Shown here piece after piece: positions 4,254 to 41,843 of a DNA stretch of 64,000 nt. The notes under the pieces are model-generated. The model did no database searches, had not been told where the DNA came from, and saw only the letters and a program-made list of their open reading frames with translations. This stretch comes from Planctomycetota bacterium (GTDB taxonomy: Bacteria; Planctomycetota; UBA1135; GCA-002686595), in assembly GCA_002686945.1 (NCBI GenBank), contig NYYZ01000002.1, positions 136,010 through 200,009 of the forward strand, read 5' to 3'. Each line of letters starts with the position of its first letter. Position 1 is the stretch's first letter. A program made the translations under genes and the position numbers.

Positions 4254-6398
4254 TCAAAGAATATCCAGGATGCCCGTGCCGCCGCCGGTCAGGGTCGTGG
4301 AGTTTGCGCGGTAGTTGATGTCCTGGCCGATCTTGGAGTTCCAAGGCAGCATCTCTTTGTCACACACGATCCCCAGGGCCACCGCCGCGAAGCCGCGGGC
4401 GCCACCGGTCATCTTGGGACTCTGGAGCATCTCCACCAAAGGCTCGATTGAGTTGCGATCGCCGATCTGGCCCAAGGCCGTGGCGATGGCAGCTTGAGTG
4501 GCCATTCCCTTGGCGTTCGCCAGCATGTCCACCAGCTTGGGCACGATGGCCTTGTCGCCCAGCAAACCCAGGGAGATTGCAGCCTGCTTGAGCAGGTCGG
4601 GGCGGTACTTGGCTTCTTCGATCAGAACCTGGATCTGCTCCACCGGGCGGGGGTCACCGATCAGGCCGAGGGCCACGCAGCAGTAACCGCGGGCCTCGTC
4701 ATCACCGGTGAAGTAGTCCAGCTTGTCGATGATCAGATTGATCGCGTCGACGTTCTTGCTCATACCCAAGCCAAGTACATAGGCGCCGATGTCCGCGGGA
4801 CGACGGCAGTCCTTTGTGGCCGCTTGCAGGGCAAGAATCGAGGTGGTATCCAGGCTCTGGCCTGCTTCCAAGAGATCCCAACTCTGCACGCCGATGGCCA
4901 GACCGGCCCAGGGCTTGAGTTGTACCTTGCCGCGACCGAGGGTCTTGGTGAGGGCTGATTCCACTTCTTCGCGGCCGCCCCAGGGCTTCTCGCCGATGCC
5001 GGCGCGGGCACCGATTTGGGACAGAGCTATGAGTGAGAATCGTCGGGCCTGTTGACGGCCCTTGGATGCGACCTCACGCAGACCAGCACGGATCTTGTTG
5101 TCGACGGCCTTGGCCCCATCGTCGTCGCAGTTGCCGATCTGGCCCAGGGCCAGGGCGGCACTCATTTTCAGCTCGCGTTGCGTGTAGTCGCTACGCTCGC
5201 GAATGGCTTCGAGCAGCATCTCGGACACTGCCGCGCGCTGAGTTTTGGCCTCTTCGCCGGTCAGGTCTTCAAGCAGCATGGCCATGGAGCGGGGCGCGTG
5301 GGCGCGCACCAGATAATGGCGCGTGCTCTTGTTGGCGCGCACGTTGCGCTCGTTGAAGTAGTCGAGCAGGAAGGCGAGTTGGGCCTGGCGCGAGACCACA
5401 TGGGGCAGGTTGCCCTTCATCTCATCTTCGCTGAGTTCTGGAACTGCTTCCACCGCGTCTACACGGGTCAAGCCGAAGGCCACCATGGCGGCGATCTTGA
5501 TGTCCCGGGTAGCGAAATTTGGAGAAGTCAAAACGTCGGCCAGATGCTCGGCGATCTGCTTGCGCAGTTCGTTGTCGCCGGAGCGGTAACCGAGTAGACC
5601 CAAGCCATAGGCGGCGAAGGCTCGGGTGCGCAGAGATACCTGTGTGGAACCCACGGCTTTGCGGCCAATGGGCCCGTCGTTCATCAATTCCACCAAGATA
5701 TCGATGCTGCCCTCATCGGCCAAGATGCCCAAGGCCACGGCAGCGGTCTCGGCTATCTCTTGACTGGAGTCGTCGAGGAACTTCATGATTTCCTTTTGGA
5801 AACGCGACTCGCCGCTTTCGTCCTGCTCGTCACCGATTTTGGCCAGGGCGATCATGGCGCCGGTGACGATGTCATTGTGACGTTCCTTTGCAAGGGCCTC
5901 GAGCAGTGCGGGAACCACTACATTGTCGATCTGTTCTTTGGTGGGGCGCAGGGTTTCTTTGGCCTGCTCCTTTTGACCATGGCCCAGAAAAAACTCAGCG
6001 GAGCCGGTTTGGATGTTGCCATCGTGGATGTGGCTCTTCAGGTTGAGGTAGGGGTCTTTGTTGAATCCCCACCAAAAATCCCAACGGGTCAGGTCGGGTC
6101 CGGCGTCGCCGCCACCTTGGGTCGTGGGGCCCTGAGTCTGGCCCGGAGCCGGGGTGCCGGCGGGGGTACCAGGTGCCGCAGCGGGGGTGCCAGGGGTGGA
6201 AGGTGCGGGGGTGGTGGGAGCACCAGGAGCCGGGGCTCCAGGGGCAGCGCCGCCGCCTCCTCCGCCACCACCGGCGCCGGGGGGCACCGTGTCACCGGGA
6301 CCCCGGTAGGTGCCGCCGTGGCCCACGGAAAAGTCGCTCAGGGCAATGGTGCTGGCTGCCATCAAGGCGCCGATAAGGATGAGTTTTTTCATGGTCAT
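4254..6398 (-). CDS. secreted HEAT-repeat protein with Gly/Pro/Ala-rich N-terminal linker
   Basis: Signal peptide MKKLILIGALMAASTIA; many HEAT-like units (ALLEALAKERHNDIVTGAMIALAKIGD, AAVALGILADEGSIDILVELM, AAIATALGQIGDRNSIEPLVEML). Confidence 0.8.
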   Translation of the reverse strand: MTMKKLILIGALMAASTIALSDFSVGHGGTYRGPGDTVPPGAGGGGGGGGAAPGAPAPGAPTTPAPSTPGTPAAAPGTPAGTPAPGQTQGPTTQGGGDAGPDLTRWDFWWGFNKDPYLNLKSHIHDGNIQTGSAEFFLGHGQKEQAKETLRPTKEQIDNVVVPALLEALAKERHNDIVTGAMIALAKIGDEQDESGESRFQKEIMKFLDDSSQEIAETAAVALGILADEGSIDILVELMNDGPIGRKAVGSTQVSLRTRAFAAYGLGLLGYRSGDNELRKQIAEHLADVLTSPNFATRDIKIAAMVAFGLTRVDAVEAVPELSEDEMKGNLPHVVSRQAQLAFLLDYFNERNVRANKSTRHYLVRAHAPRSMAMLLEDLTGEEAKTQRAAVSEMLLEAIRERSDYTQRELKMSAALALGQIGNCDDDGAKAVDNKIRAGLREVASKGRQQARRFSLIALSQIGARAGIGEKPWGGREEVESALTKTLGRGKVQLKPWAGLAIGVQSWDLLEAGQSLDTTSILALQAATKDCRRPADIGAYVLGLGMSKNVDAINLIIDKLDYFTGDDEARGYCCVALGLIGDPRPVEQIQVLIEEAKYRPDLLKQAAISLGLLGDKAIVPKLVDMLANAKGMATQAAIATALGQIGDRNSIEPLVEMLQSPKMTGGARGFAAVALGIVCDKEMLPWNSKIGQDINYRANSTTLTGGGTGILDIL

Positions 6399-6838
6399 TC
6401 GATGGGAATGGGTGTCTCTTGCTGAGGTGAATTCTTCAGGACTGCTTGAACAGCTTCTGTCTGATTCCGTGCGGTGCGTTTGAGTGCGGTGTGTCTGGTT
6501 TGTGCCCCAGTTGGGATCTCCCAGCTGGGCTTTCTGCTGGCTTGCAGAAGGACCGAGTGGGCGCCATTCCAGGGCGGTATGGCCCCAGCGAACTTGCCGG
6601 GGTTGTGTTTATCCTCTGCAAGGGGCGTGCCGCCAGGTGCCTGTGATAGGGCTTCCAGGATAGGATCGTGGGGGCTCAAGCGCAATGCGTGGGGTTATGG
6701 GGAAGTGGTTTCTGGGGTCGCTGGTGGCAACTGTGGACAGGGGTCTAGCAGCCTCGCCGATCCGTGTTTCCCCTGGGGAACACAGGTGTTCCCTTTGAGG
6801 GGGTCCCATTGGGGCCCACCAGGCGGCAGACTATACCC

Positions 6839-8206
6839 ATGGCAGGTGCAGCAAGGACCCATTCGGAACTGGAGCCCCTTTTCAGGTGCCTGTTGGCTAG
6901 GAGTTCCGCGCAGGGCCCGCCCTCGCCGGAAGCCCTTCTCAAGGACCTTCTGGAAGCCTCCCCAGGGCTGCTGGCCCTTGGTTACCTGCCCCTGGGCGGC
7001 CAGGCCTGGCGTACCCCAGGCTGTGGGCGGCTGACCAATGGCCTCTTGGGAGAGGCCGCCTGGGCCAGCGCTGGCAGTCGGGGGAGGCCCCCCGCGAAGA
7101 TTTCAGGCTCCTGGAGGGTGCAGCCGGCGATGGGGGAGGAGGGTCTTGTTCAGCGAGGCCACCTGATTATCAGAAGCCACTCCCAGGGAATCCTTGAGGC
7201 AGTCGGCTGGGAAAGTCTGGCTGATGGGATCGGAGCCTTGGTGGCTCGTACCAATTCGTCTCAACAATCCGAGCATCTGCTCGCCCTGGGTGCGCGCTCG
7301 GCAAGTCTGGCCCATGACCTGCGCAATCGTCTGACCGGTGTCATGCTTGAATCCTGCCGCATGCGCATGGACGACAGGGCCGTGGGCTTTGGGCAGTTGG
7401 AGGATCATCTCATGGAGGCCGCAGAACTCTGCGGCCGGGTATTGGATTCTGAAGGTCCAGGTCCCGGTGCCCCTCTGGGAACGTGCCCTGCAGCCAGCCG
7501 ACTCGATCTCTGCCAGGTTGCTGCCTCCGCCTTGGAGCGATCCAAGTCGACAATCCGGGCAGGATCAGCGGCGCTGCCCCCGGAAGTCATCAACGACCTG
7601 CCTGCCAGAGGTCAGGTATTCGCCAACCGCGCTCTGTTGGAGGATGCCCTGGTCAACCTGATCGTCAACGCCGCGGAAGCAGCTGGTTCCCGGGGCAAGG
7701 TGCGAGTTGGACTGACCCAGGAGCGCGGCTTGTCCGGATTTTGGGTACAGGACAACGGTCGGGGTCTGCCCGCGGGTGCCACCGAGCCGGGGGCCAGCAA
7801 CGGCGGCACCGGTCATGGGTTGAGTGGAGTCATCGAGTGTGCTCGTCGCCACGGGGGCGAACTGATCTATTCGCGGAAAGAGGGGTTTACGCGTCTTGAG
7901 TTGTTTTGCCTCGATGCTTGTCACCTTGAGGGCTCCTGGCAGATCCACTTTGACCCCCTGGGGGGACGTCTTGTACGGAGAGCAGCCAGCCGTGGGCCAC
8001 TGACACTCTGCACTCAACGCCTCGACTACGCCATCCGTTGGATGGACCTTCTGACCCCTGAAGTTGCGGGCGAAGTGCATGCCTGGCGTGGTTCGCCTGG
8101 ACTGGGAAGGCTGACCCGCCTGGTGGGTGGTTGGGGCAGTCAGCACGTGAAACTTGTGCTCCACAGCGGCGCTCTCAACGAGGGCCCCTGGGCGTTCGCC
8201 TCCTAG
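6839..8206 (+). CDS. soluble histidine kinase-like protein (DHp + HATPase_c) with novel C-terminal extension
   Basis: DHp-like [16 protein letters not shown]; HATPase N box [16 protein letters not shown]1 [10 protein letters not shown]2 [10 protein letters not shown]; start uncertain (ORF opens at 6764). Confidence 0.75.
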
Positions 8207-17501: not shown

Positions 17502-17544
17502 GGCAATCTTGAGTTGACTTGGCCAGTGAGCCATGTGACAGTAG

Positions 17545-17670
17545 TCTCTTCAAAATTCGTCAGGTGCCCCATGCGGGGGAAGTTCGTGTGATTCGAACGC
17601 GGTCCCGCCACTGTGAAGTCCATCCATTGGACTGAGCCAGGATTCTCGCTGTGGCACCGGGACCCCCGGG
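17545..17670 (+). promoter_or_regulatory. cobalamin (B12) riboswitch
   Basis: AGGTGCC (17562-17568), GGGGGAA, hairpin GTTCG-TGTGATT-CGAAC (17582-17598), CGCGGTCCCGCCACTGTGA, hairpin GTCCA-TCCAT-TGGAC (17618-17632), B12-box-like GAGCCAGGATTCTCGCTG (17634-17651), in canonical order. Confidence 0.88.
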
Positions 17671-17768
17671 GTCTTGTTCAGTACCAGTCTTGTCCGAGGA
17701 GTGTTTCTTTGGGGCGGTACAACAACAGGTTTCCGGGTCTTTTCAGCGGAGCACTGATTGGATCACCC

Positions 17769-19106
17769 ATGAAACCCTCTTTCTCAGTTCGTGTCCTTGG
17801 AGGCACTCTTTCTTTGGCGCCGGCTTTGTCGGCAATTCTCATTCTCGTTCCCGGCGCCCAGGCCCAAACCGTTGCTCGTCCCGGTTATCAAGTGGCCGAT
17901 ACTGCACCTGTGCCCCTGGGCGCGGCCGTGAGTTCGCTGACCGATGGCCGCTATGTGACCTTTGATGGGGCGACTGTGGACCTTTGGAATTCTGCTGGCA
18001 TACACCAGCTGAGTCTCGGATCGTTCCCCAGCCCCGTATTTGCGAGCTTCATCGCAGTCCACCCGGACCAGACAATGGCCATTCTGGGCGAGAGCACCAA
18101 TGGCGAAATCTACTCCATTGACCTCAACGGTGGCGGCATGCTGCTTCTGGCCCAGGCGACATTCAACTACGCCTTGTGCTACGACCCGGATGGGAGTCGG
18201 GCTTGGGTCTCGGCGGCATTGGGGGGTTGGGGTGCAGGCAATGACCTCCTGGAACTCGATCTGGTTACAGGGCAGCTGACTCCCCGTGCGCATGTGGTGG
18301 GCCCATCGGGTCCCCTGGCCACAGACAGGGCTGGCAACCTCTATTACGGCACTCAATACGACGGGTGGCCCGTGCCCCCGGATACCCAGAACCTGATTCG
18401 CTTCGAGGCCAGTGATCTTCAGGGTCCGGGCCTGCTGACTGAACTGGACGCGACTGTGTTGATCAGTCGATTGGATGGCACCAGCGGAATCGTGGTCGAT
18501 GAGCCTGGCGGGAGCATGTTTGTGGTGGAAAGCGACCCTTCCGGGGGCGCAGAGAACATCTTGCGCCGCTACGACCTTGCGGGCAATTTGCAGGACGATG
18601 TCCTTGCGGCCACTGCCTGGCTCAACGCCCTTGAGCTGGTGCCTTCAGCGAGCCCTTCGATTCTGGCCCCCTATCAACCTCTGGGTGCTGAGTTGCGGCT
18701 GGGAAGCACGGATTTCAACTTCGGGGTCAGTGAACGGCTCATTCTGGAGAGCAAGCGTTGTGGTATTTCCTTCAATGGCCCCAGCGGTCCTGCCACTGGG
18801 CCCGCCCTGGTGACCGTGAGCGATGTGCCCCAGGGCGGCAGTGCCTCGATCATGCTGACCCGCACGGCATTCTTGACATCTCGTGAGTATCAGGTTGATT
18901 TGGGTTGGGGCGTGCCGGTGTTCTTGATGACCCAGCCTGCGTTGATTCTGCGCCGTACGATTTCCTTGGATGTGGGCCCCAATGGCGAGGTCCAGCTGGC
19001 CTACACCCAGCCAGACTTCATGTTCGGGGTGGTGGGGTATCAGGCGGTGATCCATGACGCGCTGGGTGCGCCCGTGGGCACCAGCGAGGTCGTCATCAAC
19101 GATTGA
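17769..19106 (+). CDS. secreted beta-propeller-like protein under predicted B12 riboswitch control
   Basis: Signal peptide ending GAQAQ; repeated beta-blade-like segments (IAVHPDQTMAILGESTNGEIYSIDLNGG, ALCYDPDGSRAWVSAAL...LLELDLVTGQL, LATDRAGNLYYGTQYD...LIRFEAS). Confidence 0.75.
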   Translation: MKPSFSVRVLGGTLSLAPALSAILILVPGAQAQTVARPGYQVADTAPVPLGAAVSSLTDGRYVTFDGATVDLWNSAGIHQLSLGSFPSPVFASFIAVHPDQTMAILGESTNGEIYSIDLNGGGMLLLAQATFNYALCYDPDGSRAWVSAALGGWGAGNDLLELDLVTGQLTPRAHVVGPSGPLATDRAGNLYYGTQYDGWPVPPDTQNLIRFEASDLQGPGLLTELDATVLISRLDGTSGIVVDEPGGSMFVVESDPSGGAENILRRYDLAGNLQDDVLAATAWLNALELVPSASPSILAPYQPLGAELRLGSTDFNFGVSERLILESKRCGISFNGPSGPATGPALVTVSDVPQGGSASIMLTRTAFLTSREYQVDLGWGVPVFLMTQPALILRRTISLDVGPNGEVQLAYTQPDFMFGVVGYQAVIHDALGAPVGTSEVVIND

Positions 19107-41485: not shown

Positions 41486-41843
41486 TGGTGGAGGCGGGGG
41501 GAATTGAACCCCCGTCCCGGAGCCGCCAGCCCCGGACGTCTACGCGTGTGTTCCGTGCTCAGTATCTCGTCCTCCAGCTGCCCACGGACAGGCGGCGTTT
41601 CAGACCAGCCTCAGAAAAGTCTCATCGGGTTGCCCTGAGGCGCAACTCTCCGACCAGCCCGTTGTTGTCGTCTCTGCGGGGCCACGGGCGCTCCCCGCAG
41701 AGACGGCGGCTGATAAATCAGGCCGCGAGTTCAAAATTGTTGGCAGTTAAAAATTGCCGTCCCGGGATGTTGACGGGGTGACCTGGGATCCCCGACGCGC
41801 AGTCCGAAGTCGCACGAGAACCGGTCGAAACCAGTGCGCCCCC
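41486..41843 (-). ncRNA. ssrA: transfer-messenger RNA, tag ANNFELAA
   Basis: Reverse complement starts GGGGGCGCACTGGTTTCGACCGG and ends GGACGGGGGTTCAATTCCCCCCGCCTCCACCA; acceptor GGGGGCG/CGCCTCC; tag ORF GCC AAC AAT TTT GAA CTC GCG GCC TGA. Confidence 0.97.

Follow-up and report, generated by a model that had tools for sequence, protein, structure and literature searches.

A cobalamin riboswitch-linked exported beta-propeller of Planctomycetota as a candidate corrinoid-capture protein

The locus raises the question of why a cobalamin (B12) riboswitch should stand in front of a gene for an exported protein of no named family. Capture of B12 at the cell surface by propeller proteins has so far been described from gut Bacteroidetes, where BtuG is a seven-bladed surface lipoprotein adjoining btuB (PMC10404256, PMC6143338). 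The original prediction was that the present gene encodes an analogous, possibly independent, B12-regulated propeller for corrinoid scavenging; in the literature searched, BtuG and Planctomycetes were not found together in any paper. The window is the whole 64,000-nt stretch of contig NYYZ01000002.1 that was analysed, and positions are those of the window unless a locus is named. The source assembly amounts to 2.8 Mb in 53 contigs and is about 79% complete.

Riboswitch, linkage and expression platform

A cobalamin riboswitch aptamer was matched by the Rfam covariance model RF00174 at 17525..17667 on the + strand. The score of 36.8 bits (E 1e-5 in a search of the whole window with all Rfam families) exceeds the gathering cut-off of 31.5 and places the element within the family, which bears out the aptamer originally proposed for this leader. 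When a short stretch was searched, the AdoCbl model RF01482 scored 48.8 bits, its cut-off being 50, at 17550-17676, and this alignment runs through the aptamer elements named in that proposal. The RF00174 match is the only one in the source assembly, a draft genome. The start codon of the propeller gene lies about 100 nt past the end of this match.

Conservation of the arrangement was examined in 61 genomes, namely the source genome and 60 relatives, each of which was searched with RF00174 and with the protein. Relatives that could be named are Planctomycetota, for the most part metagenome-assembled genomes, together with the complete genome Pla86, which has an orthologue (L144). The protein query gave 50 matches in 46 of the 61 genomes, 44 of them at E <1e-7, and for 41 of the 50 matches a riboswitch lies 18-302 nt upstream on the same strand. 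Counted by genome, 41 of the 44 with a clear homologue are riboswitch-linked, and this, with the further loci described below, upholds the expected linkage among orthologues. Retention in 41 related genomes is more than chance would give. The three exceptions all lie at contig edges: about 100-200 nt precede the gene in G035 and G021, and in G038 the contig begins with a BtuH-like gene that stands ahead of it. The remaining unlinked matches are second copies or very weak.

A search with the family profile recovered homologues across the phylum, more than were found by the protein query. Among 40 further distant or extra loci, 26 have a riboswitch above the cut-off (17 in the first batch of 20, 9 in the second), and four extra named planctomycete loci (L138, L145-L147) have one as well. 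The linkage reaches other Planctomycetota families, including those that match in the propeller part only. Loci lacking a riboswitch include contig-end fragments, paralogues, two homologues of the PEP-CTERM kind and one genus (L204-L206) from within the same family; at L202 a sub-threshold AdoCbl match was obtained. In two small-genome planctomycetes of family f51 (L190 and L191), a propeller with a PEP-CTERM-like tail was observed with no detectable cobalamin riboswitch.

An alignment of 24 leaders revealed a conserved hairpin within the 40 nt upstream of the start codon. In the window this is TCAG-CGGAGCA-CTGA at 17743..17757 (+), 11 nt before the ATG. Over the alignment 93.8% of the cells are paired and 20 show a change in both partners; in 500 shuffled controls neither value was reached, and pairing fell to 46% at most when the partner was slid by one base. 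The loop opens with an invariant CG in the 24 leaders. In corrinoid riboswitches L5 (consensus UCCCG) forms a kissing interaction with L13, the loop of P13 in the expression platform, and the CGG of L13 is functional in one such riboswitch (PMC10653944). The loop in the window starts with CGGA and could pair, with one bulge, with UCCCG at 17603..17607 (+), which by comparison with the published consensus is the putative L5 of the aptamer. The covariation of the hairpin and its place next to the start codon are in keeping with P13/L13 and translational repression; we infer that it would act as P13/L13 and that ligand binding would block translation.

The exported protein and its predicted fold

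The gene extends from an ATG at 17769 to a stop at 19106 (17769..19106, +) and encodes a protein of 445 residues (P0001) with homologues in related genomes and a single copy in the source genome. Neither Pfam nor NCBIfam returned a family match for the protein, in line with the earlier statement that it is not a known cob, btuB, metE or nrd gene; a role as a metE/nrd-type isozyme was rejected, no such domain being found in either database. Single-sequence searches with the window protein likewise found nothing, including no YncE-type match. The 5' neighbour is a CvpA-like gene and the 3' neighbour, on the opposite strand, is a short NifU-like frame (by reading), so the propeller gene seems to be solitary. 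Riboswitch control of the CvpA-like gene was rejected, since that gene sits 5' of the riboswitch.

A putative signal peptide, as had been anticipated for this gene, occupies residues 1-32 (17769..17864, +): the N-terminus reads as hydrophobic and ends in an AQA site, and residues 1-31 have pLDDT values <50. A scan for the lipobox pattern gave no lipobox in the window protein, the first 136 residues of which contain no cysteine, and a loose form of the pattern occurs in 2 of 41 family members.

An AlphaFold2 model built with 17 family members was all-beta, with a pLDDT of 86.9 and a pTM of 0.83 for the full protein and 89.0 and 0.88 for the propeller alone. Residues 33-330 (17865..18758, +) are predicted to form a six-bladed beta-propeller, the strand order being read as six blades over residues of about 53-328. 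The AlphaFold2 model and a family profile search set residues 331-445 (18759..19103, +) apart as a C-terminal beta-sandwich. The original description of a propeller-like protein is therefore retained for residues ~33-330 and given up for 331-445. Among the Foldseek matches listed all are propellers, which agrees with the fold expected. When the propeller was modelled alone, the higher TM-scores among those matches went to six-bladed folds, with strictosidine synthase at 0.63-0.66, PQQ sugar dehydrogenase at 0.62 and a designed six-blade propeller at 0.71 by target length. The expected resemblance to BtuG did not emerge, BtuG being absent from the best 50 matches of a search in which Foldseek did not separate the propeller families.

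The C-terminal sandwich alone (profile positions ~326-440) matches other long, unrelated planctomycete frames, and in other families the same propeller is joined to tails that read as dockerin-like or PEP-CTERM-like. These changing anchors on a constant head suggest a surface-held protein. Within the propeller, the loops of one face are slightly more conserved, a bias that is suggestive at most (p 0.08). A separate protein of ~1000 residues with repeated carboxypeptidase-regulatory-like domains (cluster c30) is encoded after the propeller gene in three genomes, at L072:1145-4162 (-), L108 and L131.

Neighbouring genes and B12 economy

In several planctomycetes the propeller gene is accompanied by exported, BtuH-like proteins encoded directly behind riboswitches (cluster c11). 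BtuH binds B12, and 7BIZ is an entry cited in the paper describing it (PMC8941943). The best PDB match of the c11 profile is the BtuH domain of BtuG1, at a weak E of 0.23; a clear member of the cluster from a distant planctomycete (P0003) matches the same domain with an E of 2.8e-20, and 7BIZ with an E of 2.4e-12. In G353 the riboswitch is followed by the propeller gene and then by the BtuH-like gene; in G289, and likewise on a short contig in G341, riboswitch and propeller are followed by a large protein with a BtuH-like part. In G038 the BtuH-like gene comes before the propeller. Two riboswitches occur in tandem in G032 (L083, about 4283-7340), the first ahead of the propeller gene and the second ahead of the BtuH-like gene, and in G049 the two genes diverge with one riboswitch each. 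No BtuH-like gene was detected in the source genome.

A different propeller occupies the riboswitch position in 11 genomes. This cluster, c9, belongs with the YncE/surface-layer YVTN propellers (3VGZ, 1L0Q), of the YncE/BtuG superfamily (3VGZ E 5.5e-10; 8BLW E 0.003), whereas the window protein has no such match on its own. The window's propeller family is found at that position in none of the 11, an exclusion with a chance of about 1e-8 on the assumption, which does not hold, that the genomes are independent; two of the 11 come from the same bacterial family as the window. The c9 leaders contain a like hairpin, with a loop that also starts with CG. Within a few kb after the c9 gene of G039, G043 and G047 there is a thiC-type gene (Pfam-checked for L096), the riboswitch-controlled c9 genes near thiC being L085:5468-6847 (-), L096:4067-5413 (-) and L076:7839-9575 (+). 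This hints that B12 capture may be tied to thiamine synthesis.

CbiC, which catalyses a step of corrin synthesis and is a single marker rather than the whole pathway, was found in 0 of the 61 genomes, with the control set detected in 7 genomes. The host group thus apparently cannot make B12. Nonetheless it has B12-dependent enzymes: B12-binding domains are present in all 37 genomes tested, and a congener encodes full-length MetH, of which the source genome shows a fragment at the edge of a contig. FecCD-type permeases are encoded in 59 of the 61 genomes, and in relatives BtuF-, BtuC- and BtuD-type genes lie behind the same riboswitch class. The best scores of the ABC ATPase found in the source genome are to heme importers.

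No BtuB-type receptor lies beside any propeller copy examined, and in the window neither a TonB receptor nor a B12 transporter adjoins the propeller gene; Pfam searches of ten neighbours of distant loci also gave no TonB receptor. The only TonB receptor found in the source genome is on another contig (L148:4784-7078 (+)) and scores closest to heme receptors, though without reaching their cut-offs. It is divergent from a tonB gene (L148:4009-4809 (-)), and a CzcA-like efflux gene follows the receptor gene.

Corrinoid capture and its alternatives

Taken as a whole, the explanation that is probably correct is that an exported, surface-held propeller captures corrinoids for a bacterium unable to make them. 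The scavenging role originally predicted gains from the BtuH-like neighbours, the YncE/BtuG-type replacement and the absence of CbiC, and we infer from these that the propeller binds a corrinoid. At low intracellular B12 the aptamer would be empty, P13/L13 would not be stabilised and the propeller protein would be made. With plentiful B12 the bound aptamer would let L5 (UCCCG) kiss L13 (CGGA), so that P13 is held and the translation start blocked. The signal peptide would direct export, and the C-terminal module would keep the protein at or near the outer surface. There, one face of the propeller may bind the corrinoid and pass it to a putative outer-membrane transporter, from which it would go to a BtuCD-type ABC importer.

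Several points weigh against capture: the likeness of propellers to each other and the many enzymes among them, the missing BtuB-type neighbour, the heme-like best scores of the TonB receptor and ABC ATPase, the weak one-face bias, and the genus and paralogues that lack the riboswitch. The protein could be a B12-repressed secreted enzyme, a catalytic six-bladed propeller of the lactonase, PQQ dehydrogenase or strictosidine synthase kind, that frees or remodels corrinoids or meets some other need in B12 shortage. That strictosidine synthase and PQQ aldose sugar dehydrogenase are among the six-bladed folds with the higher TM-scores points in this direction, as do profile matches that include pieces of DFPase. 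However, no enzyme family was matched in Pfam or NCBIfam, and the BtuH-like partner genes together with the YncE/BtuG-type replacement favour capture; we therefore consider an enzyme unlikely.

Capture might instead have been inherited, the protein being a true BtuG family member that has drifted past sequence recognition. Profiles A1 and A2 can be aligned across 112 columns with a probability of 94%, and A2 members weakly match BtuG structures (8blw E 0.003, 8okv 0.05). Alignments of this kind are, however, common between propellers. The protein has features in common with BtuG1-3 of Bacteroides thetaiotaomicron, as an exported beta-propeller under cobalamin riboswitch control in B12-scavenging bacteria, with a BtuH-type partner that is fused in BtuG1 and encoded by an adjacent gene in some planctomycetes. 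Its pI of 4.2 also agrees with the negative face of BtuG, but a low pI is common and was given no weight. Against this, six blades are predicted by AlphaFold2 rather than seven, the signal peptide is of the ordinary type with no lipobox, there is no DUF5074/YncE sequence match, no btuB lies beside the gene and a C-terminal module is added. DUF5074 is moreover absent from 58 of the 61 genomes, including the source genome, and the Foldseek result given above points the same way. A remote BtuG is thus quite unlikely. Because the BtuG features tested (predicted blade number, lipobox, family match and btuB linkage) are lacking in the window protein, 'analogous, possibly independent' is the better wording than 'BtuG'.

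The BtuH-like proteins that adjoin the propeller under riboswitch control recall BtuH2 (BT_1956) and the BtuG1 domain, whereas the window protein itself has no BtuH-domain match. Mucisphaera calidilacus, a planctomycete, enters the comparison through DUF4465, a domain found in 0 of the 61 genomes searched. BtuJ/DUF4465 proteins are accessory proteins that are exported and bind B12; they have a jelly-roll fold and in Bacteroides are under riboswitch control, and one tested DUF4465 member comes from M. calidilacus (PMC13398666). The window protein resembles BtuJ in being exported and riboswitch-regulated but is not predicted to share the jelly-roll.

A B12-regulated surface protein with a task unrelated to corrinoids (adhesion, signalling or the use of a substitute under B12 scarcity) would accord with the many roles of propellers and with the lack of an adjacent B12 transporter in the source genome. 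Yet tens of genera retain the linkage, and where neighbours under riboswitch control are present they are corrinoid-handling genes, which makes such a role improbable. That the riboswitch match arose by chance or is a relic, without control of the gene, is scarcely credible: its own score is modest and the AdoCbl model falls narrowly under its cut-off, but relatives score up to 108.7 bits, the linkage is conserved across related genomes and the P13-like hairpin covaries.

The chances appear about even for a wider form of the capture reading, in which the family is a phylum-wide, independently evolved corrinoid-capture class that combines a six-bladed propeller with exchangeable anchors, BtuH-like partners in some lineages and an outer-membrane route other than an adjacent BtuB. 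If corrinoid capture is the function, the strategy is shared by a further large phylum, which carries it out with a different protein family that has no name as yet, and exported B12-capturing proteins would be a general response to scarcity, not something peculiar to the gut. The gene family could then mark B12 scavengers in metagenomes, and the question is raised of how B12 passes the planctomycete outer membrane.

Elsewhere in the window, Rfam identified a tmRNA gene at 41486-41843 on the - strand (146 bits) and, away from it, three tRNA genes.
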